Of a stretch of 64,000 nt of DNA, positions 27,213-37,306 are shown piece by piece. Every line of letters starts with the position of its first letter. Position 1 is the stretch's first letter. The position numbers and the translations under genes were made by a program. The DNA lies in the NCBI GenBank assembly GCA_947447895.1, contig CANFLM010000002.1, positions 1 to 64,000 of the forward strand. The letters run 5' to 3'. Source of the stretch: Hyphomicrobiales bacterium. Its GTDB lineage: Bacteria > Pseudomonadota > Alphaproteobacteria > Rhizobiales > Beijerinckiaceae. The notes below the pieces were generated by a model. That model did not search any database. It was not told the DNA's origin and saw only the letters and a program-made list of their open reading frames with translations.

Positions 27213-27306
27213 TCAAATGGGCTTGGGACAAACAGGCTTGGGAACGGACAATATCCGGAATTTATGGTAGCTTTCCAAAGTGGTGTTGCGTTGAAAAGGT
27301 TTTGTG

Positions 27307-27795
27307 ATGGCTCGTTATAAGCCGCTCTTTTTGTTGCTGGTCATGGCCATGCTTGCCTGGGTGCAAACCGGTTTTGCCCAAAGTACGCCCGATTCCCGTC
27401 GGCAGCTCAATCAGGACATCCAGACCCAGCAGCGCCAGATCCAGGAGCGCAGTCGCGAGATCGAGCAGCGTGTGCAAGACCAGCAGCGCGAGGAGGAACG
27501 TTACCGCCGCGAGCAGGACGAACGCCGCCGCCGCGAGGAATGGATCGAGCAGCAACGCCAGAACGGCCAGCCTGTGATCATCATCGACCCGAACCGGTCG
27601 CGCCCTCTTTATGACAACCGTCCTGCTCCGTCCTATCAGCCCGAGCCGAACTGGGCGGAACCGGTGATCCCCGGCTGGGACCGCCAGCGCATCATCTTGC
27701 GCGGTCAATATTGGGTCCAGCCGGGCCCGCAATGCCAGCTCGAAACATGGATGGACGGCCGCGGTCAGCCTTTCCGCAGGTGGGTTTGCCCCTGA
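27307..27795 (+). CDS. Secreted coiled-coil protein of unknown function
   Basis: I do not recognise the family. The 162-residue product begins with a clear signal peptide (about 1-24, ending GFAQ). Next comes a highly charged Gln/Arg/Glu coiled coil (about 30-85, heptad-like Q-x-x-I-Q-E-R-x-x-E). A Pro-rich section and a C-terminal globular-looking end follow, with tryptophans and two cysteines (GPQCQLETWMDGRGQPFRRWVCP) that could form a disulfide. Periplasmic or envelope location is inferred. Starts GTG 27304 and ATG 27307 are adjacent; the ATG is preferred. Confidence 0.7.
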   Translation: MARYKPLFLLLVMAMLAWVQTGFAQSTPDSRRQLNQDIQTQQRQIQERSREIEQRVQDQQREEERYRREQDERRRREEWIEQQRQNGQPVIIIDPNRSRPLYDNRPAPSYQPEPNWAEPVIPGWDRQRIILRGQYWVQPGPQCQLETWMDGRGQPFRRWVCP

Positions 27796-27919: not shown

Positions 27920-28912
27920 ATGACCATGTCAATTTCGCGCCGTGTGTTTACTTTGGGTGCCGCCAGCGCCGCCCTGTCGATGCCTGCGATCGGAGCGCGT
28001 GCGCAAGCTACCGTCATCCGGTGGGGCGAATTGCTCGCCAATAGCCATCCGCAGGTGCAGATGGCCGAGCGGATCGCCAAAGAGGTCAAGGAAAAATCGG
28101 GCGGTCGGATCGACATCCAGCTGTTTCCCAATGGCCAGCTGGGTTCGGGCAAGGACATGATCGAGTCCGTTTCCTCGGGTGCTTTGCATCTGACCACTGA
28201 CGGCGCGGGGGCCCTGAGTGCCTTTCTGCCGCAATTGTCGGTGATCGAAGCGCCCTATCTGTGGCGCGATGCCGACCATCTGGCCAAGGTGAACCAATCG
28301 CCTTTGATGGCCAAGCTGAACACCGATCTGGTCGCCAAGCGCGGCATGCGCATGCTCAATGTCACCTATTACGGCAAGCGGCACCTGACATCGGGCAGCA
28401 AGAATGTGCAATCTCCGGCCGATATGGCGGGTTTCAAATTGCGCGTTCCCGCAGTGGATGTGTTTCTGGCGATGGCCGAGGCCTGGGGCGCACGCGCCAC
28501 GCCGATTGCTTTCCCCGAACTCTATCTGGCCCTGTCGCAAGGTGCGGTTGACGGTCAGGAAAATCCGCTGCCGACCATCCAGAGCGCCAAGCTGTTCGAG
28601 GTCCAGAAATATCTGATCCTGACCGAGCATATCATTACCCCGCGCATGATTATCGTGAATGACGCGTTCTGGAAGGGCCTTCCCGCCGCTGATCGCAGCC
28701 TGGTCGAAGCGGCTTTTAACGCCGGTGCGGCCTGGCAAGACAAGGAACTGCTTTCGCAAGAAGCCGGTCTGGTCAGCACCCTCAAGGGGCAGGGCATGAC
28801 GGTGGTCGAAGCCAAGGTCGATGACTGGCGCAAGCCCGTGATGGCCAGTGTGCCGAAAAAATTCGAGGAACGCTGGGGCAAAGGCACATTCGACGCCTTG
28901 GCTGCCCTGTAA
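27920..28912 (+). CDS. dctP: TRAP transporter solute-binding protein (DctP family)
   Basis: Periplasmic binding protein of 330 residues that delivers a carboxylate-type ligand to a TRAP permease. The signal peptide has a twin-arginine-like start (SISRRVFTLG) and ends at ARAQ. The DctP fold is seen in GGRIDIQLFPNGQLGSGKDMIE, TYYGKRHLTSG and the ligand-anchoring region GFKLRVPAVDVFLAMAEAWGARATPIAFPELYLAL. The conserved arginine (LRVP) usually contacts the ligand carboxylate, suggesting an organic acid. Strong ribosome site GAGAGGGAGAG. First of dctP-dctQ-dctM. Confidence 0.93.
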   Translation: MTMSISRRVFTLGAASAALSMPAIGARAQATVIRWGELLANSHPQVQMAERIAKEVKEKSGGRIDIQLFPNGQLGSGKDMIESVSSGALHLTTDGAGALSAFLPQLSVIEAPYLWRDADHLAKVNQSPLMAKLNTDLVAKRGMRMLNVTYYGKRHLTSGSKNVQSPADMAGFKLRVPAVDVFLAMAEAWGARATPIAFPELYLALSQGAVDGQENPLPTIQSAKLFEVQKYLILTEHIITPRMIIVNDAFWKGLPAADRSLVEAAFNAGAAWQDKELLSQEAGLVSTLKGQGMTVVEAKVDDWRKPVMASVPKKFEERWGKGTFDALAAL

Positions 28913-28937
28913 AGACCTGATCGCGGGCACAGACGGG

Positions 28938-28959
28938 TGCGGGGCATTATGGCCCCGCA
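28938..28959 (+). terminator. Intercistronic hairpin between dctP and dctQ
   Basis: Perfect 8-bp stem TGCGGGGC/GCCCCGCA (arms 28938-28945 and 28952-28959) with a 6-base loop, followed by A's rather than T's. It therefore more likely protects the dctP mRNA 3' end or attenuates readthrough than fully terminates, which would give an excess of binding protein over permease. Confidence 0.5.
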
Positions 28960-28972
28960 AAAGGGGACAGAG

Positions 28973-29476
28973 ATGAGGTTCCAGGCTGTTTACGCCGCCC
29001 TGCAACGGGCCATGGCGGTCTTTGATGATTGGGTGTCCCAAACAGCCAAGCTCTTTGTCGTGGCACTCCTGCTGACGGTGCTTGCGGGGGTGTTCTGGCG
29101 CGGCTTTGGCTATCCTCTGAGCTGGACGGATGAGGCCAGCGGCTATCTGATGGTCTGGACGGCCTGTCTGGGTTGGATCATGGCAACGCGCCGACATGCC
29201 CATATCCATATCCGTTTTTTTCAGGACCACATGCCCGGATCGATGCGGCAGCCCTGCTTGCTGCTGATCGAGCTGATGGTGTGTGTGTTCGGATGCTTTG
29301 TTGCCTTCAAAAGCGTACATCTGGTTCTGGTCAATTCGGATATCGAGGCCATCAGCATGCCGATTTCTGCGGCGTGGCTCTATGTGCCTTTGCTGCCTGC
29401 GGGTCTGGTGACGGCGGGACAGGCGCTGGTTGATTTCTGCCGGCATTGGGGCGGCAAGACGGAGACCGCATCATGA
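28973..29476 (+). CDS. dctQ: TRAP transporter small permease (DctQ family)
   Basis: Four-helix inner membrane subunit of 167 residues. The family pattern WTDEASGYLMVWTACLGWIMATRRHAHI (about 41-68) is clear, as are the last helices SMPISAAWLYVPLLPAG. The ATG at 28973 has AAGGGGAC upstream. Its stop overlaps the dctM start (ATGA), so the two permease subunits are translated in step. Confidence 0.92.
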   Translation: MRFQAVYAALQRAMAVFDDWVSQTAKLFVVALLLTVLAGVFWRGFGYPLSWTDEASGYLMVWTACLGWIMATRRHAHIHIRFFQDHMPGSMRQPCLLLIELMVCVFGCFVAFKSVHLVLVNSDIEAISMPISAAWLYVPLLPAGLVTAGQALVDFCRHWGGKTETAS

Positions 29477-30753
29477 CGGCCATGATGCTGAAAATTGCCG
29501 GTGTCTGGCTGATCACGATCTTGGCTGGTTTGCCCCTGTTCGTGTCGATGGGGCTGGCCTGTCTGGTGTTTCTCCTGCTGGCCGGAATGCCCGTGACAGT
29601 GCTGCCGCAAAAAATGGCGGGGTCGATCAATTCCTTCCCGATCATCGCCGCGCCTTTGTTCATTCTGATGGGCAATATTCTGGCCGCCGCGCAACTGACC
29701 GACAAGATTGTCGCTTTTGCCAGCGCGGTGATCGGCTGGGTGCGCGGGGGTTATGCCCATGCCAGCATTCTGACCAGTATGATTTTTGCGGGCATGGTGG
29801 GTTCTGCCGTTGCCGATGCGGCGGGCGCGGGCGCAATCGAGGTGCGCGCGATGCGCAAGGCGGGGTACCGGCCCGAAACCGCCGCCTCGATTACGGCGGC
29901 GGCGGCCACCATCGGCCCGATCATTCCGCCCTCACTGCCGATGGTCATTTACGGGGTGACGGCGGATGTCTCGATCGGCAAATTGTTTCTCGCAGGGGTG
30001 ATCCCCGGCCTCCTGATGGGGCTTGCCCTGATGGTGATGGTGTCGCTGGTGGCGCGGCGCGAGGGCATGGGCCGCAAGGCCTTTGTTGGTTTCAAAGTGG
30101 TGGGAACCACATTTTTGCGCGGTTTTTTTGCCCTGATGACGCCGGTCGTGATTTTGGGCGGTATCTTTGGCGGCTTTTTCACCCCGACTGAAGCCGCCGC
30201 TGTGGCCTGTCTCTATGCGCTGTTTCTGGGTTTTGTTGTCTACCGCACCCTGACCTGGCAGCATATCGGCCCCATTCTGACGGAGACGGCTGAAACCACC
30301 GGTCTTGTGCTGGTGCTGGTGATGGCTGCGGGGGCGTTGGGCTGGTGCATTTCCATTTCGCGCCTGCCCCAGACGCTGACCCCGATGATTCTGGAGACGA
30401 TCAAGGATCCTCTGGTCTTTCTGCTGATGGCGAACCTCTTGATGCTGCTGATCGGCTGTTTCATGGAAGCTTTGGCCGCCATGCTGATCCTGATCCCGAT
30501 CCTCGTGCCTGCCGCCATCAGTTTCGGGATCAATCCTGTCCAGTTCGGTGTCATCATGGTGTTGAACCTCATTCTGGGCACGATCCACCCGCCCATCGGG
30601 GTGGTGCTGTTTGTGGTCACCCGCATTGCCGATGTGTCGTTTGAAACCATGTCCCGCGCCATTCTGCCCTGGCTGATCCCGCTGGTGGTCGTGCTGCTGG
30701 CCATCACGGTCTGGCCACCGCTGACGCTGTGGCTGCCCTCGCTTTATTTCTGA
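29473..30753 (+). CDS. dctM: TRAP transporter large permease (DctM family)
   Basis: Sodium-coupled transport subunit of 426 residues with about 12 helices. Family motifs: NSFPIIAAPLFILMGNI, GGYAHASILTSMIFAGMVGSAVADAAGAGAIEV, ATIGPIIPPSLPMVIYG, and LNLILGTIHPPIG. Coupled to dctQ. The next gene, a deacetylase, starts only 20 bases downstream, so the transporter and the envelope cassette may share a transcript. Confidence 0.94.
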   Translation: MTAMMLKIAGVWLITILAGLPLFVSMGLACLVFLLLAGMPVTVLPQKMAGSINSFPIIAAPLFILMGNILAAAQLTDKIVAFASAVIGWVRGGYAHASILTSMIFAGMVGSAVADAAGAGAIEVRAMRKAGYRPETAASITAAAATIGPIIPPSLPMVIYGVTADVSIGKLFLAGVIPGLLMGLALMVMVSLVARREGMGRKAFVGFKVVGTTFLRGFFALMTPVVILGGIFGGFFTPTEAAAVACLYALFLGFVVYRTLTWQHIGPILTETAETTGLVLVLVMAAGALGWCISISRLPQTLTPMILETIKDPLVFLLMANLLMLLIGCFMEALAAMLILIPILVPAAISFGINPVQFGVIMVLNLILGTIHPPIGVVLFVVTRIADVSFETMSRAILPWLIPLVVVLLAITVWPPLTLWLPSLYF

Positions 30754-30773: not shown

Positions 30774-31556
30774 ATGGACAGCGTGAATCAGCAGCCGAGC
30801 ATTGTGCGGGACTGCCCGTGTTACAGCCAAATTTCAGGGATCAACCGGCGGGCGGTGCTGGGCTTTGCCGCCACAGCCATGGTCGCGGCTTCTTCTGTCT
30901 GCGCGGCAGGCGAGCATCCGGTTGAACCCCCTCTGACATTGCCGCTTGATCGGGGAGTGGCGTCCCCCGTCGCTTTGACCCTTGATGCCTGTTCGGGCGG
31001 TTTTGACGTCCATCTTTTGCAAGCGCTGATTGACTGGAAGGTCCCAGCTACCATTTTTGTCACGGGCATCTGGCTGGCCCGTCATCCGCAAGCTCTGGCG
31101 CAGATGATGGCGCATCCCCGCTTGTTTCAGTTCGGCAATCACGGTGCGCGCCATCAGGCAATGGTGCTGGGAGAGCGGCTTATCTACGGGCAAAAAACCG
31201 TCGGTACGATTGATGCGGCCCGCGAGGAGGTGCTGGAAGGCGGAAGGCTGATCGAGCAGGCCACCGGTGTCCGGCCGAAATGGTTTCGCGGCGCGACGGC
31301 CCTTTACAGCCCGTCTTTGCTGCCGATGATCGGGTCATGGGGCTATCGGGTGGCAGGCTTCTCGCTCAATGGGGATGCAGGGGCCAGCCTGCCGGCCCAA
31401 GCGGTGGCAGCACGGATCGGCCGGGCCAAAGCCGGCGATGTGATCATCGCCCATATTAACCAGCCGCAGCGCTCGAGCGGGATGGGCGTGATCGGCGGAG
31501 TGAAACGGCTTGTTGACCAAGGATTCACCTTTACCTCACTCGATGCAAATGTTTGA
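30774..31556 (+). CDS. Exported polysaccharide deacetylase (NodB-type), variant motif
   Basis: Carbohydrate esterase family 4-like protein of 260 residues with a twin-arginine-type export signal (GINRRAVLGFAATAMVAASSVCAAG, about 24-48). Motif 1 reads VALTLDACSGGFD rather than the usual TFDDG, a variant found in some CE4 members, and motif 2 is GNHGARH, with both metal-binding histidines. MTF3-like FRGATALYSP and a late IIAHINQP histidine complete the set. A deacetylase acting on a periplasmic or cell-wall glycan is likely. First gene of the SGNH/MBOAT cassette; start ATG at 30774 chosen, ribosome site weak. Confidence 0.82.
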   Translation: MDSVNQQPSIVRDCPCYSQISGINRRAVLGFAATAMVAASSVCAAGEHPVEPPLTLPLDRGVASPVALTLDACSGGFDVHLLQALIDWKVPATIFVTGIWLARHPQALAQMMAHPRLFQFGNHGARHQAMVLGERLIYGQKTVGTIDAAREEVLEGGRLIEQATGVRPKWFRGATALYSPSLLPMIGSWGYRVAGFSLNGDAGASLPAQAVAARIGRAKAGDVIIAHINQPQRSSGMGVIGGVKRLVDQGFTFTSLDANV

Positions 31557-31636
31557 GCTTGAAATCGCTGAAAACTGTTGCTCTTGGTGTGAAATCATCG
31601 CATTTGATCGAACCGCCCTCTAAATTTTCCGATTTC

Positions 31637-32302
31637 ATGTCCCGTATTGTTCCCGCCCTTCTGTGTGCTTTTGGTTTGCTGGTCAGCATGGCCGTGCCCG
31701 CCACCGTGCGCGCCGAATACTATGTTGCCGGTGACAGCATCGGCATGGGGGTCGGCATGGCCTCGCAATTGCCGTCGGTGGCGGCCATTTCCATCGCGAT
31801 CCGCGGCCCCAAAATCATCGACCAGTTGCGTGCCGTTCCTGCAGGCTCGACCGTCTTCCTGAGTCTCGGCACCAATGATGCGGTGTCCAATCTGGTCAAA
31901 GGCGGGGCGGATCTCGATCGGCTCGTGGCTTTTGCGCATGACCAGCGTTTGAAAATCTTCTGGATCGGCCCGCCTTGCGTGCTCAAGCCCTGGGACGAGA
32001 GTGCCAAGAAACTGGATGAATCTTTGCGTGCCGATCTGGCCAGAACCGGGATCATCTATGTCGGCATGCGCTCCCCGGCCCTGTGCGACCCGGCTGTGCG
32101 GGCGAAGGACGGCATCCATTTTACCATGACGGGCTATCGCATGATGTGGCAATTGGCCGCGGAAGCAGCCCATATCAAGCCGGTGGTGCAGCCTGCCCCG
32201 GTCCATGCAGGGGCCTCCCATGCCGTCCCACCGAAAAAGAAACGGAAAAAACCCCTGAAAAAGGTCGGGGCGCCGGCCGCAACGTCAGGTGCGGCCAAAT
32301 GA
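31637..32302 (+). CDS. Exported SGNH/GDSL hydrolase with basic tail
   Basis: First of three SGNH-fold proteins in a row. The 221-residue product has a signal peptide (about 1-26, ending VRA), block I VAGDSIGMG (nucleophile Ser), block III LGTNDAV (Asn), and block V KDGIHFTMTGY (Asp/His). It ends in a Lys/Pro-rich tail (PPKKKRKKPLKK). It is expected to transfer or remove acyl groups on a periplasmic glycan. A TTG overlapping the deacetylase stop is a possible alternative start, but the signal peptide supports the ATG at 31637. Confidence 0.8.
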   Translation: MSRIVPALLCAFGLLVSMAVPATVRAEYYVAGDSIGMGVGMASQLPSVAAISIAIRGPKIIDQLRAVPAGSTVFLSLGTNDAVSNLVKGGADLDRLVAFAHDQRLKIFWIGPPCVLKPWDESAKKLDESLRADLARTGIIYVGMRSPALCDPAVRAKDGIHFTMTGYRMMWQLAAEAAHIKPVVQPAPVHAGASHAVPPKKKRKKPLKKVGAPAATSGAAK

Positions 32303-33072
32303 GGTTGACGGAACGGATGCGAAGGCATGCCTCATGGCTGGCGGGTTTGGTGATGATGTCGGTCTCCGGCCTGATCTCCCCTGCGCTGGCGCAACCGGAG
32401 CCGCCGCATCTGGCCTTTATCGGCGATTCGATGAGTGATGGCCTGTGGGGCGGCTTTATCCGTCTGGCCACCAAAAATGCCTGCCTCTCCGCCATATCCT
32501 ACGAGCGGCACGGCAAAAACGGGATCGGACTGGTGCGGATGGACCAGGCCGATCTGGTGCGCGATTTCCTGTCCATCGTGCAAAAAACCGCCAGTCCGAA
32601 AGTGATTGTTCTGTCGGTCGGCTTGAATGACCGTCAGGATGCGTGGTTCGGCGACCGCACCCGTATTCCCTATGGCAGCGAGGAATGGACGGTGTTCTAC
32701 AAAACCCGTCTGACCCAGATGATGGATGCCGCCGAGGCCGCTGACCAGGGTCTGGTTATTCTGGGCCTGCCGGTGCTGCGCGAGGCCAAGGCCAATGACG
32801 ATGCGCTCGCCAAAAACAGATTGCTGGCCGATGTGGTCAAGGCCTATGGCAAGCCGTCGATCGTGTTTCTGCCAAGTCCGCTTGATCCGGCCGAGGGGGC
32901 GCAGGCTTTCAAATCCTATGACCGGATCGGTGGCAGTCTGACCCAGATGCGCGCATCCGATGGCGTGCATTTTACCCAAGCCGGTTATGACTATCTGACA
33001 CAAAGCCTGTTGCCGGCCATTCTGGCTGTGCTGCAGCAAAAGGGCTGGACGCCGGCGGGGCCCTGCCCTTGA
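32299..33072 (+). CDS. DUF459-family SGNH hydrolase, exported
   Basis: Second SGNH protein, 257 residues. Signal peptide about 1-32 (ending SPALA-Q), then block I FIGDSMSDGLWGG, block III VGLNDRQ, and block V SDGVHFTQAGYDYL, so the Ser-Gly-Asn-His set is complete. The sequence matches DUF459, found mainly in alphaproteobacteria. The ATG overlaps the preceding stop (ATGA). Likely periplasmic esterase or acetyltransferase; substrate unknown. Confidence 0.84.
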   Translation: MRLTERMRRHASWLAGLVMMSVSGLISPALAQPEPPHLAFIGDSMSDGLWGGFIRLATKNACLSAISYERHGKNGIGLVRMDQADLVRDFLSIVQKTASPKVIVLSVGLNDRQDAWFGDRTRIPYGSEEWTVFYKTRLTQMMDAAEAADQGLVILGLPVLREAKANDDALAKNRLLADVVKAYGKPSIVFLPSPLDPAEGAQAFKSYDRIGGSLTQMRASDGVHFTQAGYDYLTQSLLPAILAVLQQKGWTPAGPCP

Positions 33073-34349
33073 GTTCGCGCAACCCGCTGCCATTTGGCTG
33101 GGGTCCGGTTGTTCTGGCATTGGTGCTGTTGAGCCTGCTGGCACTAAAACTCACGAAAAACCTGATCGACGACCATCCCGAAGGGATCGGGGCCTGGCTC
33201 TCCTCTGTGCTGTCGGAGCCAGAGGACAGACCGGCTGAAACCGTCCGAAAGGGGCAGGCCACGCCGATTGTCATGGCCATTTTGGGGGACAGCCATGTGG
33301 CCGCCGATCTGTTCAGCGGGCATATCCGCTCCCTGCTGCAGCAGCATTATGGCGAGGCCAACGGGCTGCTCCTGCCGCTGGGCCAACCGCATCCGGGGAT
33401 CAGAAGCGGGGCGGTCACCGTGCAGGCCTCCCCCGGATGGTCCTACCGGACGGTCATGAATGCTCCGGCCGATACACGCTATCTGCTGTCGGGTTCACTG
33501 GCGGAAACCAGCGCGCCGGACCAGACCCTGTTGTGGCAAACCCGCCGCCATCCATTGGCCTTCGGGACCATCGAACTGCTGTTCCAGACCGGCCCGCAGG
33601 CCGGCGAGATCGAGCTTGCCCTCGATGGCGAGTCCGTCGGCCAGTTCGATCTGGCGCGCCCCGTCGAGGGGATCGTGGCGATTCCGCTACACCCGAAAGC
33701 AGGCGGTGACGGTGCCTTTCGCTCTGTGTTGCTGACCACCCGTACGGCCAGGCCGGTTGTGCTGTTGCAGGTGCTGGTCAGGCCACTGGCGGCGGGGATC
33801 AGCGTGATCAGCACCGGCTATCCGGGCGCGACATTTTCGGTGCTCGACCGGCTGGAGACCGCGCGCTTCGATCAGGCCTTGCAGCAGCTCAAGCCCGATC
33901 TGCTGGTGCTGGCTTTCGGGACCAATGAGGGGTTTGACGACCATCTGGCTATGCCGCGCTACCAGCAACTGCTGGCGCGCCAGATCAACCGGTTCAGAAC
34001 ATTGTTGCCGCAGACGCAGCTTGTGCTGATCTCCCCTCCGGTCGGGGGCAGGGCCAATGCCACACAGGATTGCGGTTGGCTGGAGCCGCCCAAACTGGCA
34101 CTGGTGCGGCAGGCGCAGGACCAGCTGGCCCAAAGCCAGGCGCTGCCGATCTGGTCCTGGGCGCAGATCATGCCGCAAAGCTGTGCAGGACATCAATGGA
34201 CACTTGATCAGCCGCGCCTGATGGCCGATGACCATATCCATCTGACCGGCGAGGGGTATCGCCGGAGCGCCGAGGCTTTTGTGACATTTGTGATGCCTGT
34301 GATTGACCGGACCATCAGGGAGCGCAACGATGCTGTTCCCAAGCACTGA
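33069..34349 (+). CDS. Membrane-anchored SGNH hydrolase, larger type
   Basis: Third SGNH protein, 426 residues, with an N-terminal transmembrane anchor (about 12-28). It has block I MAILGDSHVAADL near 70, an inserted beta-rich domain (about 120-240; LLFQTGPQAGEIELALDGES), block III LAFGTNEGFDD near 280, and block V DDHIHLTGEGY. The insertion resembles the carbohydrate-binding module seen in some acetyltransferase-associated SGNH proteins (structural inference). The start is probably a TTG overlapping the preceding stop (TTGA). Its 3' end overlaps the MBOAT gene by 20 bases. Confidence 0.8.
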   Translation: MSSRNPLPFGWGPVVLALVLLSLLALKLTKNLIDDHPEGIGAWLSSVLSEPEDRPAETVRKGQATPIVMAILGDSHVAADLFSGHIRSLLQQHYGEANGLLLPLGQPHPGIRSGAVTVQASPGWSYRTVMNAPADTRYLLSGSLAETSAPDQTLLWQTRRHPLAFGTIELLFQTGPQAGEIELALDGESVGQFDLARPVEGIVAIPLHPKAGGDGAFRSVLLTTRTARPVVLLQVLVRPLAAGISVISTGYPGATFSVLDRLETARFDQALQQLKPDLLVLAFGTNEGFDDHLAMPRYQQLLARQINRFRTLLPQTQLVLISPPVGGRANATQDCGWLEPPKLALVRQAQDQLAQSQALPIWSWAQIMPQSCAGHQWTLDQPRLMADDHIHLTGEGYRRSAEAFVTFVMPVIDRTIRERNDAVPKH

Positions 34350-35748
34350 ATTTGCTGTTTTTTTCGGATGTGTCTGGTCTGTATCCTGGCTGTTGCGCGA
34401 GGCCAATACGGCGCGCAAATCCTTTCTGGTTCTGGCCAGCCTGCTGTTTTACGCCGCTTGGGATGCCCGTTTCGTGGTGATGCTGCTGGCGGTGGCGGTG
34501 CTGATGCTGGTCTGCGGACAATGGATCGACCGCAATACGGCGCGGCGGCGGCGGGCCAGCATCACCAGCGCAGGCATCATCGTGTTGCTGGCCGTGCTGG
34601 GCTATTTCAAATATGCCGATCTGCTGATTGCCTCGGCCATGCAGTTCGCCGATCTGCTCGGCGTTCCGCTCGATCTGCTTCTGGTGGACGTGGCGGTGCC
34701 GGTCGCCATTTCATTTTTCACCTTCCACGCGATTTCCTATCTGGTCGATGTCCATAAAAACACCATCAAGGCTTCCACCAGCCTGCTGGATCTGACGCTC
34801 TATATCAGCTTCTTCCCGCATCTGGTGGCGGGTCCGATTGTGCGGGCCCGCGAGTTCTTGCCGCAACTGGCTGCGTCACCACGCCAGATGCCGATCCCGC
34901 TCGGGGCATCGCTGGCACTGATCATCGGCGGTCTGTTCAAAAAGGTGGTGATTGCCAATTATCTGGCGACCGCTTTGGTCGATCCGGTCTATGTCGATCC
35001 CTCGCGCGCATCCATGCAGGAAGTCTGGGGAGCCTTTTACGGCTATGCGCTGGTGATCTATTGCGATTTCAGCGCCTATACCGATATTGCCATCGGGATT
35101 GCCAGCCTGTTCGGCTACCGTTTCCCGCAAAATTTCGACCAGCCCTATCGTGCGCTGTCGGTGCAGGATTTCTGGAACCGCTGGCACATCACTTTGTCGC
35201 ACTGGTTGCGCGACTATCTGTATATTCCGCTTGGTGGCAACCGGCTCGGACGCTGGCTGACGGTGCGCAATCTGATGGTCACCATGCTTCTGGGCGGGTT
35301 GTGGCATGGCGCCAGCGGCACCTTCATCCTGTGGGGCGGGCTGCATGGTCTGGCGTTGATGGTCCATTACGGCTGGGCGCGGACACAGACGGCCCGTGAC
35401 TGGCGCGACCACCCCCATTATCAGGCCGCATGCTGGTGCGTGACCTTCCACACGGTCTGCCTGTTGTGGATCCTGTTCCGCTCGCCCGATCTGGACACAG
35501 CCGGACAGTTTCTCACGGCTTTGGTCCATGCGCCGGTTGCCGCGGGCGGCTTGTCGACGACCCTGCTGCTGCTGTTAGCCCTCGGCGCCCTGACGCAGAT
35601 CGTCCCGAAACAGGTCTGGGCGGGATTGGCGCAGGATTTCGAGCAAAAGCCGGTGGCACTGCAAAGCGTGCTGGTGGCTGTGGCTTTATTGGGTTTGCTG
35701 CTGATTGCCCCGACCAATGCCGCGCCCTTTATCTATTTCAGGTTCTGA
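34330..35748 (+). CDS. MBOAT family O-acyltransferase (AlgI/PatA-like)
   Basis: Polytopic membrane acyltransferase of 472 residues that moves acyl groups, usually acetyl, across the inner membrane. Family motifs: SFFTFHAISYLVDVHK, LTLYISFFPHLVAGPIVRA, SVQDFWNRWHITLSHWLRDYLYIPLGGNR, and GGLWHGASGTFILWGGLHG containing the catalytic histidine. AlgI and PatA pass the group to periplasmic SGNH proteins (AlgJ/AlgX, PatB), which fits the three SGNH genes directly upstream. Confidence 0.92.
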   Translation: MLFPSTEFAVFFGCVWSVSWLLREANTARKSFLVLASLLFYAAWDARFVVMLLAVAVLMLVCGQWIDRNTARRRRASITSAGIIVLLAVLGYFKYADLLIASAMQFADLLGVPLDLLLVDVAVPVAISFFTFHAISYLVDVHKNTIKASTSLLDLTLYISFFPHLVAGPIVRAREFLPQLAASPRQMPIPLGASLALIIGGLFKKVVIANYLATALVDPVYVDPSRASMQEVWGAFYGYALVIYCDFSAYTDIAIGIASLFGYRFPQNFDQPYRALSVQDFWNRWHITLSHWLRDYLYIPLGGNRLGRWLTVRNLMVTMLLGGLWHGASGTFILWGGLHGLALMVHYGWARTQTARDWRDHPHYQAACWCVTFHTVCLLWILFRSPDLDTAGQFLTALVHAPVAAGGLSTTLLLLLALGALTQIVPKQVWAGLAQDFEQKPVALQSVLVAVALLGLLLIAPTNAAPFIYFRF

Positions 35749-35755
35749 GGTGATG

Positions 35756-36025
35756 ATGGACCAGGCAAGGGACACTCTGTCGCAACAGTCTTCGATCCGG
35801 CGGGCGATGCTGGTGATCTATCCGGCCTTGCTGGTGGCTTGGCTGGCTTTTCCGGGACTGGTGCGGGATTGGGCCAGCGAACGGGCCGCGCAGGGTCTCT
35901 TGCCGCAAGCCCTGATGCCTGTATTCGAGACTGTGGTGGTCCTGTCCGAACAGATCGGTGTGTCACCGGTCATGCAACAGTGGCATGACCGTCTGAATGC
36001 GCGTCTCGACGAGCGGATCCGCTAG
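35756..36025 (+). CDS. Small membrane protein at the end of the acylation cassette
   Basis: Unrecognised 89-residue protein: about 18 cytosolic residues, one hydrophobic segment (about 19-36, MLVIYPALLVAWLAFPG), and a C-terminal part likely to be periplasmic, ending in a charged DRLNARLDERIR helix. TGAGG sits 5 bases before the ATG at 35756; ATG 35753 is adjacent. Its position 7 bases after the MBOAT stop suggests a subunit or scaffold of the acylation machinery (inference). Confidence 0.6.
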   Translation: MDQARDTLSQQSSIRRAMLVIYPALLVAWLAFPGLVRDWASERAAQGLLPQALMPVFETVVVLSEQIGVSPVMQQWHDRLNARLDERIR

Positions 36026-36054: not shown

Positions 36055-37152
36055 TTAGCCCCGGTCATTTTTGCGCGGCGGTGTGGCCGCTGCCGTTTGC
36101 GGCTTGGCCGCCGGCTTTTTGGTGGCTGTTGCTGTCGGCTTGCCGGCCGGTGCGGCCTTGTTGGCTGCGGTTTTCACCGGTTCAGGTTTGCCGGCAACGG
36201 TCTTGCTGGCGGCAGGCTTGCCGGCTTGTGGCTTGTTGACCACGACCGCCACAGGTTTGCCTGCTGCACTGGCGACTGTCTTGGCGGCAGCGGGGGCAGC
36301 CACTGCTTTGGCCGGCGGCTGTGGTGCGTATTTGGCTGCAGCGGCAGAAGCCGGTGCAGGCACACTGGCCGGAGTTGCCGTTTTGACCGCATTGGCCGCG
36401 GCGGGTTTTGCGGGCTCGGCTGCGGGGGCTTGCGGCACGAACGGGGCAATGCTGGCGACCTGTGCAGGCGCCGCATGGCGGTTCAATTGGGCGGGACGGC
36501 CGTCGGTGCGCAGCGTCGCGAGCAGGACCTTGTCATCATCCCCTTCCATCGGGGCGCGGCCGATATAGTCGACCTTGACGCGTGCGGTGCCCAGATGTTT
36601 GAAATTCAGGCTGGTGGCCACCTGTTCGGACACGTCGACCAGACGGTCATCATGGTAGGGACCGCGGTCGTTGACGCGGGCGATGATCGAGCGGCCGTTC
36701 AGCGTATTGGTCACGCGCACATAGCTCGGCAAAGGCATGGTCGGATGCGCCACCGAAATCGATTCGCGGTCGAACACTTCGCCATTGGCGGTCATGCGGC
36801 CATGGAAGGACGGGCCGTACCATGAGGCGGTGCCGACCGCGCTGTAATTCTTGTCCTCGCGCGGCACATAGAGCTTGCCGGCCACGGTATAGGGCTTGCC
36901 CACCATGTCATAGCCGCCACCCTTGGGGATCGGCTCGCCATCGGCTATCACTTTGGGACTGGCTTTGACCCCGTATTTGTTGCCCGAGGCGGTCTTGGTC
37001 GGATTCGAGGCGCAATTGGCGACCAGCAGGCCCAGCATGACCACCGCGGCGGGACGCCACCAGACCAGTCTATTCCGGCTCCTGATCGGCAGGCTGGCAG
37101 GCAAGACCTGTCCAGCAAGCGGGGTGATTGGGCCTTGGGATTGCTGTGTCAA
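36055..37152 (-). CDS. rlpA: RlpA-like septal ring protein with Ala/Lys/Pro-rich tail
   Basis: Envelope protein of about 365 residues with a double-psi beta-barrel (TASWYGPSFHGRMTANGEVFD, PLPSYVRVTNTLNGRSIIARVNDRGPYHDDRLVDVS). The catalytic Asp of RlpA lytic transglycosylases is in NDRGPY. The signal ends at LLVANC, a weak lipobox with Asn at -1. The C-terminal 130 residues are a low-complexity Ala/Lys/Pro/Val stretch instead of a clear SPOR domain. TTG at 37152 has AAGGA 7 bases upstream; other starts are possible. Confidence 0.85.
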   Translation of the reverse strand: MTQQSQGPITPLAGQVLPASLPIRSRNRLVWWRPAAVVMLGLLVANCASNPTKTASGNKYGVKASPKVIADGEPIPKGGGYDMVGKPYTVAGKLYVPREDKNYSAVGTASWYGPSFHGRMTANGEVFDRESISVAHPTMPLPSYVRVTNTLNGRSIIARVNDRGPYHDDRLVDVSEQVATSLNFKHLGTARVKVDYIGRAPMEGDDDKVLLATLRTDGRPAQLNRHAAPAQVASIAPFVPQAPAAEPAKPAAANAVKTATPASVPAPASAAAAKYAPQPPAKAVAAPAAAKTVASAAGKPVAVVVNKPQAGKPAASKTVAGKPEPVKTAANKAAPAGKPTATATKKPAAKPQTAAATPPRKNDRG

Positions 37153-37306
37153 ATCGTGATCCTTGAAAACACCGACTGGCAGGATTGCTCCATGTTGAAC
37201 AATCCACCTATCGTGACGGTTATAGGCCTGTCCGCCTCTGCTAGCCACACTGAGGGCGAGGTTTTTCTGCTTATGCTTACCAAAGCTTTAACGGAACCAG
37301 ATTGTC

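Follow-up and report, generated by a model that had tools for sequence, protein, structure and literature searches.

What does a single membrane-bound O-acyltransferase (MBOAT) do in a gene cluster that also encodes three SGNH hydrolases? The question is raised by a 64,000-nucleotide stretch of DNA from a Hyphomicrobiales bacterium (contig CANFLM010000002.1, positions 1 to 64,000; the window), in which six open reading frames (ORFs), all on the + strand, lie inside positions 30774–36025. In gene order they encode a CE4-type deacetylase (CE4), three SGNH proteins (SGNH1, SGNH2 and SGNH3), the MBOAT and a small membrane protein (SMP). The original prediction saw here one machine, in which the MBOAT feeds three SGNH transferases and, together with an N-deacetylase, rewrites one glycan at several positions. 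The six ORFs do exist, with the domains it had assigned, the small protein having no family, and the three non-identical SGNH proteins do carry intact Ser/Asn/His motifs. We find that the cluster is probably the alphaproteobacterial form of the O-acetyl-peptidoglycan (OAP) cluster, with SMP as a proposed docking subunit, and that the six-gene, multi-position machine is mostly explained away. The published OAP operon consists of patA, patB and ape1 and thus combines one MBOAT with two SGNH proteins of opposite function (PMC1199599, PMC12148441).

The window MBOAT, the sole one found in the genome, carries a catalytic histidine in GLWHG and ends in FIYFRF. This tail conforms to the FxYxxF-type acyl-tyrosine shuttle motif, which is auto-acetylated in Campylobacter PatA (PMC12148441). 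To place the cluster among its relatives we scanned genome contigs with the SGNH3 alignment; 249 relatives were confirmed, and locus counts refer to the best 80 of these 249. The tail is found in 74 of the 77 MBOAT ORFs of related loci, and the three ORFs that lack it contain unknown bases, represent half of a frame-split gene, or are a contig-edge fragment. Histidine and tail are also common to other bacterial MBOATs and are therefore necessary, not sufficient, for an assignment as PatA.

SGNH2 scores 124.7 bits against Pfam DUF459 (gathering cut-off 27.2), a family now named PatB (PMC9487903), and aligns with crystallised PatB catalytic domains (7trr and 7tjb, see Table 1; 8gr2, E 6e-5; 8tlb, E 1.1e-4). 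Both SGNH2 and SGNH1 have the Ser of Block I, the Asn of Block III and the Asp/His of Block V. These matches suggest that SGNH2 is a PatB-like O-acetyltransferase, with predicted activity on peptidoglycan. Two features count against a simple equation with PatB. On the NCBIfam PatB model NF045704, SGNH2 reaches 59.1 bits, far under the equivalog cut-off of 580, and we thus label it PatB-like rather than PatB. Its aligned Block II residue is Gly, whereas Neisseria and Campylobacter PatB have Ser/Asn, a replacement described as a PatB trait (PMC12148441).

SGNH3 has the catalytic motifs GDSH, GTNE and DHIH, and a long insertion of ∼200 residues separates its Ser 75 from Asn 286. Residues 51–406 match the solved structure 4k3u_A, which the search tool names as a GDSL-like lipase only and which we take to be Neisseria meningitidis Ape1. 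The published hallmarks of Ape1 are GDSH, Dx(V/T)H and a segment of ∼100 residues after motif I (PMC1199599); SGNH3 has Ile at the V/T position. In another genome (G144), a protein closely aligned (by eye) with 4k3u is encoded directly 3' of a PatB that scores 588 bits against the cut-off of 580. SGNH3 thereby groups with the Ape1-type esterases, a family with esterase function (PMC6174289), and an esterase role is predicted for it. Instead of three partners of one MBOAT, the SGNH proteins would be a transferase, an esterase and a paralogue. The case in which each SGNH protein belongs to a different known pathway, raised with the original prediction as one that would undo it, applies by half: SGNH2 and SGNH3 share one known pathway, with a different role for each, and the third is a paralogue.

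This paralogue, SGNH1, is marginally recognised by DUF459 (33.0 bits, cut-off 27.2), and its Block II position is Ser, in a region of uncertain alignment. An alignment of 16 proteins (window included) reveals a specific signature, consisting of LGTND, GPPCV and two invariant Cys. The AlphaFold2 (AF2) model (mean pLDDT 83, core about 97) finds its closest solved fold in PatB 8tlb, at some distance (TM-score 0.55, 20% identity). PatB has two β-hairpins (PMC12148441); because the SGNH1 model contains only four strands of at least 3 residues, with no paired hairpin strands, SGNH1 appears to lack both. It is a PatB-related paralogue and likely serves as an accessory transferase or a second esterase. 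Strong SGNH1-type matches (at least 260 bits, with a search model built from an alignment containing 15 of the matching proteins) occur in 16/80 loci, all among the first 20 listed (L021–L040) and including those of Methylobacterium sp. WSM2598 and Methylocapsa sp. S129. The other four of these 20 loci are L028, which is cut at a contig end, and L031, L033 and L037, which have no SGNH1 upstream. Four additional short SGNH proteins score 28–34 bits on the SGNH1 model. Short SGNH genes (about 142–167 aa) are found behind the small membrane protein gene in three Methylobacterium loci and one Rhodopila bin (L031:10928-11413, L037:10909-11412, L094:10974-11459, L051:10872-11300).

The six-gene order is identical in three of four congeners and the cluster core is retained across alphaproteobacteria; the order is therefore not due to chance, and the earlier view of a cassette for envelope acylation, with peptidoglycan as its probable target and with conservation outside this strain, is borne out. 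The shared order and the three intact triads are also what would speak for a machine made of one MBOAT, three SGNH transferases and CE4, but its composition does not hold beyond the congeners. A DUF459-type SGNH is present in 80/80 Ape1-like loci, an MBOAT in 76/80 and SGNH1 in 16/80, while CE4 occurs in 3/80, all of them congeners, and RlpA in the same three. A broader CE4 profile returned meaningful scores in those three loci only, two further matches (E 0.082 and 0.38) not being meaningful. A same-strand MBOAT is missing from five loci (L036, L060, L087, L096 and L097), of which L036 stops at SGNH3.

The fourth congener, G004 (listed as 100% complete), lacks any match to SGNH3, SGNH1 or the MBOAT and yet retains CE4 (50% identity). 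There the CE4 gene adjoins RlpA, near an RsmB gene such as is also found beside the window locus (named from Pfam), and in the 13 kb fetched neither OAP genes nor the TRAP transporter were found near it. Because CE4 and RlpA are present in 3/80 loci and stand side by side in G004 without the cluster, we regard them as residents of the site with histories of their own; CE4 is probably a neighbour rather than a cluster part, and RlpA, previously taken to point to the substrate, loses that meaning. The esterase family of SGNH3 (PMC6174289), the SGNH1 model without paired hairpin strands such as those of PatB and the probable 80-bp gap between CE4 and SGNH1 also speak against three transferases and a deacetylase served by one MBOAT, an arrangement that we consider very unlikely. 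A single six-gene machine was rejected on the CE4 counts and on G004.

CE4 itself has a single Asp in motif 1, in the window (TLDAC) as in 7/7 sequences of the set, with the His pair kept. Canonical motif 1 is TFDD, accompanied by a His pair, and the activity of the window CE4 is uncertain because one Asp takes the place of two. In the subgroup formed by the window protein (30774–31556) and those of L105, L106 and L107, motif 1 reads TLDAC, TFDAC or TFDMC, again with the His pair kept.

Unexpected in the cluster is its sixth gene. By a profile built from trimmed ORFs, 72 of the 75 loci with a same-strand MBOAT carry an SMP relative directly behind that MBOAT; its gene has the same orientation in 67 of them and the opposite one in 5, and in one a gap of 251 bp lies between. 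Run over the complete ORF set of the 80 loci (7989), the profile returned 75 matches, namely these 72 and one each in L047, L056 and L062. In L047 the SMP domain is fused (residues 147–227 of a 561-residue ORF, E 2.2e-16) and stands N-terminal to the PatB SGNH domain, and no separate SMP copy was found behind the MBOAT of that locus; the L056 match lies within an ORF containing a run of unknown bases, and in L062 SMP is located elsewhere in the cluster. We also examined 12 extra loci from a PatB search, independent of the SMP profile, 7 of which contain an MBOAT. SMP is found behind the MBOAT in 4/4 alphaproteobacterial loci among them (E 1.4e-14 to 1.3e-7) and in 0/3 non-alphaproteobacterial ones, whose PatB has an N-terminal hydrophobic stretch.

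In a class sample of 337 genomes, 16 match both the SGNH3 and the SMP profile, 2 only SGNH3, 4 only SMP and 315 neither (Fisher p 7.9e-22, a value overstated by the relatedness of the genomes). The two matches are 1.4–1.9 kb apart in 15 of the 16 double-positive genomes and 4.6 kb apart in one. The six discordant genomes were kept in the table: in G626 and G655 the matches appear to be false (E 2.5e-4 and 8.3e-4), and their loci have no MBOAT; in G444 the match lies at base 54 of the contig; in G542 the MBOAT runs into the locus end; in G670 an MBOAT directly precedes the SMP gene without an SGNH3 match; and G447 has a remote SGNH, with no PatB or MBOAT in the examined stretch.

No credible Pfam or NCBIfam match was obtained for 29 SMP members (best 0.084 and 0.0052, one member each). 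By AF2 prediction SMP folds into a long helix (residues 3–32) and three shorter ones (34–46, 52–68 and 70–89; mean pLDDT 84, pTM 0.49). The N-terminal region of Campylobacter PatB comprises a 32-residue transmembrane (TM) helix and two amphipathic helices and has been modelled to dock on PatA, and its removal had no effect on activity in vitro (PMC12148441). The predicted helix architecture of SMP resembles this docking region, and SGNH2 has no such region, its catalytic Ser being preceded by just 43 residues that look, by eye, like a signal peptide. For these two reasons we propose that SMP may be a separately encoded PatB docking subunit that acts in trans. Its position behind the MBOAT is that of PatB itself in Neisseria. 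We tentatively suggest, with somewhat less than even confidence, that the alphaproteobacterial enzyme has three subunits (PatA, a soluble PatB, and SMP as the detached docking region of PatB), that the place of SMP behind patA is a relic of the patA-patB order in other proteobacteria, and that in a Hyphomicrobiales clade this enzyme stands beside a second PatB-type enzyme.

Several observations weigh against this proposal. The SMP gene is on the opposite strand in 5/72 loci, and the fusion to PatB was seen only once, in L047. Two of the four independent alphaproteobacterial loci (L135 and L136) encode both a PatB with an N-terminal hydrophobic stretch and a separate SMP, so the docking split is not a clean either-or. 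The SMP model has four helices, compared with three described for the PatB region. Profile comparison of SMP with beta- and gammaproteobacterial PatB N termini by HHalign gave a probability of 4% (P 0.011) with 3 sequences and of 13% (P 0.0021) with 34 sequences, the latter for the TM segment only, against P values of 0.067, 0.069 and 0.31 for TM controls; homology is not established. Finally, Glu7 of PatA is a docking residue in the published PatB-PatA model (PMC12148441), and the corresponding position is variable in the 74 MBOAT ORFs in which it could be placed (Glu in 28, Asp in 23 and other residues in 23).

A single-pass microprotein beside an MBOAT could also be an acyl shuttle, as DltX is described beside DltB, and the Dlt system (DltB/DltD/DltX) resembles the cluster in its combination of MBOAT, SGNH and membrane microprotein (PMC12148441). 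DltX has a C-terminal FxYxxF motif, yet this motif is found in 0/72 small proteins and instead on the MBOAT itself, in the 74/77 ORFs noted above; in addition, no Dlt carrier gene is present among the six window genes. A shuttle function for SMP is in our estimate extremely unlikely, and SMP as DltX was rejected. If SMP is instead the PatB docking region as a gene of its own, its role can be tested without touching the catalytic domain.

Zymomonas mobilis is an alphaproteobacterium. The 2005 description of OAP clusters names ape1 and ape2, the latter now patB, and the Zymomonas cluster, compared by description only, has ape2 and ape1b upstream of pat, resembling the order found here (PMC1199599). 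The excerpted description of that cluster mentions neither a small membrane protein nor a second DUF459 gene (PMC1199599). The patA-patB-ape1 operons of Neisseria and Campylobacter share with the window an FxYxxF MBOAT, a PatB/DUF459 SGNH, an Ape1-type SGNH with an inserted segment, and tight linkage. They differ in gene order, which here is PatB-Ape1-PatA-small protein rather than PatA-PatB-Ape1, and the window has a PatB without the N-terminal docking region, a separate SMP and, in one clade, the extra SGNH1. Among titles and abstract openings of the open-licence literature we found none naming a small membrane protein for the OAP clusters of alphaproteobacteria; within the literature searched, the conserved SMP with its fusion and the clade-specific SGNH1 appear to be new.

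The acyl-tyrosine chemistry and the PatB and Ape1 activities are known for homologues, and by analogy the cluster would work as follows. The MBOAT would take acetyl from acetyl-CoA and attach it to the tyrosine within the C-terminal FIYFRF motif; the catalytic Ser of SGNH2 would accept the acetyl group and pass it to the C6-OH of muramic acid in peptidoglycan; and SGNH3 would remove it, reopening the wall to lytic transglycosylases. SMP would dock the soluble PatB on PatA; in PatB of Neisseria and Campylobacter, helices at the N terminus are modelled to do this in cis.

Is peptidoglycan the substrate? With an OAP cluster taken as a pat gene with at least one closely linked Ape-type gene, the window contains both elements. 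In 10/80 loci (L042, L044, L048, L049, L050, L053, L058, L081, L096 and L100) a same-strand transglycosylase gene lies 6–191 bp upstream of PatB, and 7 of these loci have two copies, for a total of 17 ORFs; the query protein combines Pfam SLT_2 (7e-110) with a peptidoglycan-binding domain. The protein families and this upstream transglycosylase point to peptidoglycan as the probable substrate. The same chemistry might instead serve an exopolysaccharide or another envelope glycan. The alginate system (AlgI/AlgJ/AlgX/AlgF) combines an MBOAT with more than one SGNH protein; at E 0.1 the six window proteins gave no match to an AlgJ/AlgX or AlgF domain. MBOAT-SGNH pairs are reported to serve alginate, cellulose and secondary wall polymers (PMC12148441), and the missing Block II substitution in SGNH2 would fit such a role, as would a GalU-like (name by eye) nucleotidyl transferase gene for sugar-nucleotide synthesis (PF00483, 7.6e-25) about 6 kb upstream in 7/80 loci. 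Our neighbour survey covered, for each of the 14 most widespread clusters, residues 1–60 of a single member, a coverage that a glycan synthase may escape. Agrobacterium, which has an OAP-like cluster, showed only minimal peptidoglycan O-acetylation (PMC1199599); this weighs against peptidoglycan and warns that such a cluster may go with little O-acetylated peptidoglycan. Ape1-like and DUF459/PatB families, however, together define OAP clusters (PMC1199599, PMC9487903), and given the transglycosylase genes less than 200 bp upstream of PatB we consider another glycan unlikely.

Table 1. Genes of the locus and of its flanks, with positions in the window
Feature	Position	Strand	Support
CE4-type polysaccharide deacetylase, motif 1 non-canonical (TLDAC)	30774..31556	+	Pfam PF01522 2.2e-15; LTLDAC/NHGARH motifs
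SGNH1, exported PatB/DUF459-related paralogue, triad intact	31637..32302	+	DUF459 4.9e-8; alignment of 16; AF2; PatB 8tlb closest solved fold
SGNH2, predicted PatB-like (DUF459) O-acetyltransferase	32299..33072	+	PF04311 4e-36; 7trr/7tjb E 1.2e-11
SGNH3, predicted Ape1-like O-acetylpeptidoglycan esterase, N-terminal hydrophobic segment	33069..34349	+	Lipase_GDSL_2 3.9e-12; 4k3u_A E 8e-22
PatA-like MBOAT O-acetyltransferase	34330..35748	+	PF03062 3.4e-26; Glu7, GLWHG histidine, C-terminal FIYFRF
Small membrane protein (SMP), 90 aa, single-pass	35753..36025	+	no Pfam/NCBIfam family
RlpA-like protein, convergent neighbour, context only	36055..37248	-	TIGR00413 117.5 bits
TRAP transporter DctP-DctQ-DctM, context only	27920..30753	+	domain matches

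The gene junctions were said to overlap for the most part, and they do so from SGNH1 to the MBOAT, by 4 bp at SGNH1/SGNH2 and at SGNH2/SGNH3 and by 20 bp at SGNH3/MBOAT; the MBOAT and small protein genes are separated by a 4-bp gap, and CE4 and SGNH1 probably by 80 bp. Overlap with CE4 would require a start of SGNH1 at TTG 31553. Because congener L022 has an in-frame TGA behind this TTG, the start is probably ATG 31637, 80 bp past the CE4 end, and the alternative is unlikely. CE4 begins 20 bp behind the DctM end and is thus nearer to the TRAP transporter gene than to SGNH1. The 80 bp between CE4 and SGNH1 (31557–31636) are strongly conserved in three congeners and, given the in-frame stop in one, non-coding; they are possibly a promoter or leader. 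A promoter and terminator scan returned 2 promoter-like and 5 terminator-like sites, not above shuffled sequence.

Two further observations concern proteins outside the cluster. PatB/DUF459-like proteins of 379–528 aa are encoded in L134 and L137–L140, with no MBOAT match in the 11 kb fetched, and DUF459 proteins may have partners other than MBOAT. A small Gln/Arg-rich protein with no Pfam family is encoded near RsmB in both the window (27304–27795) and G004 (L109:6808-7377).

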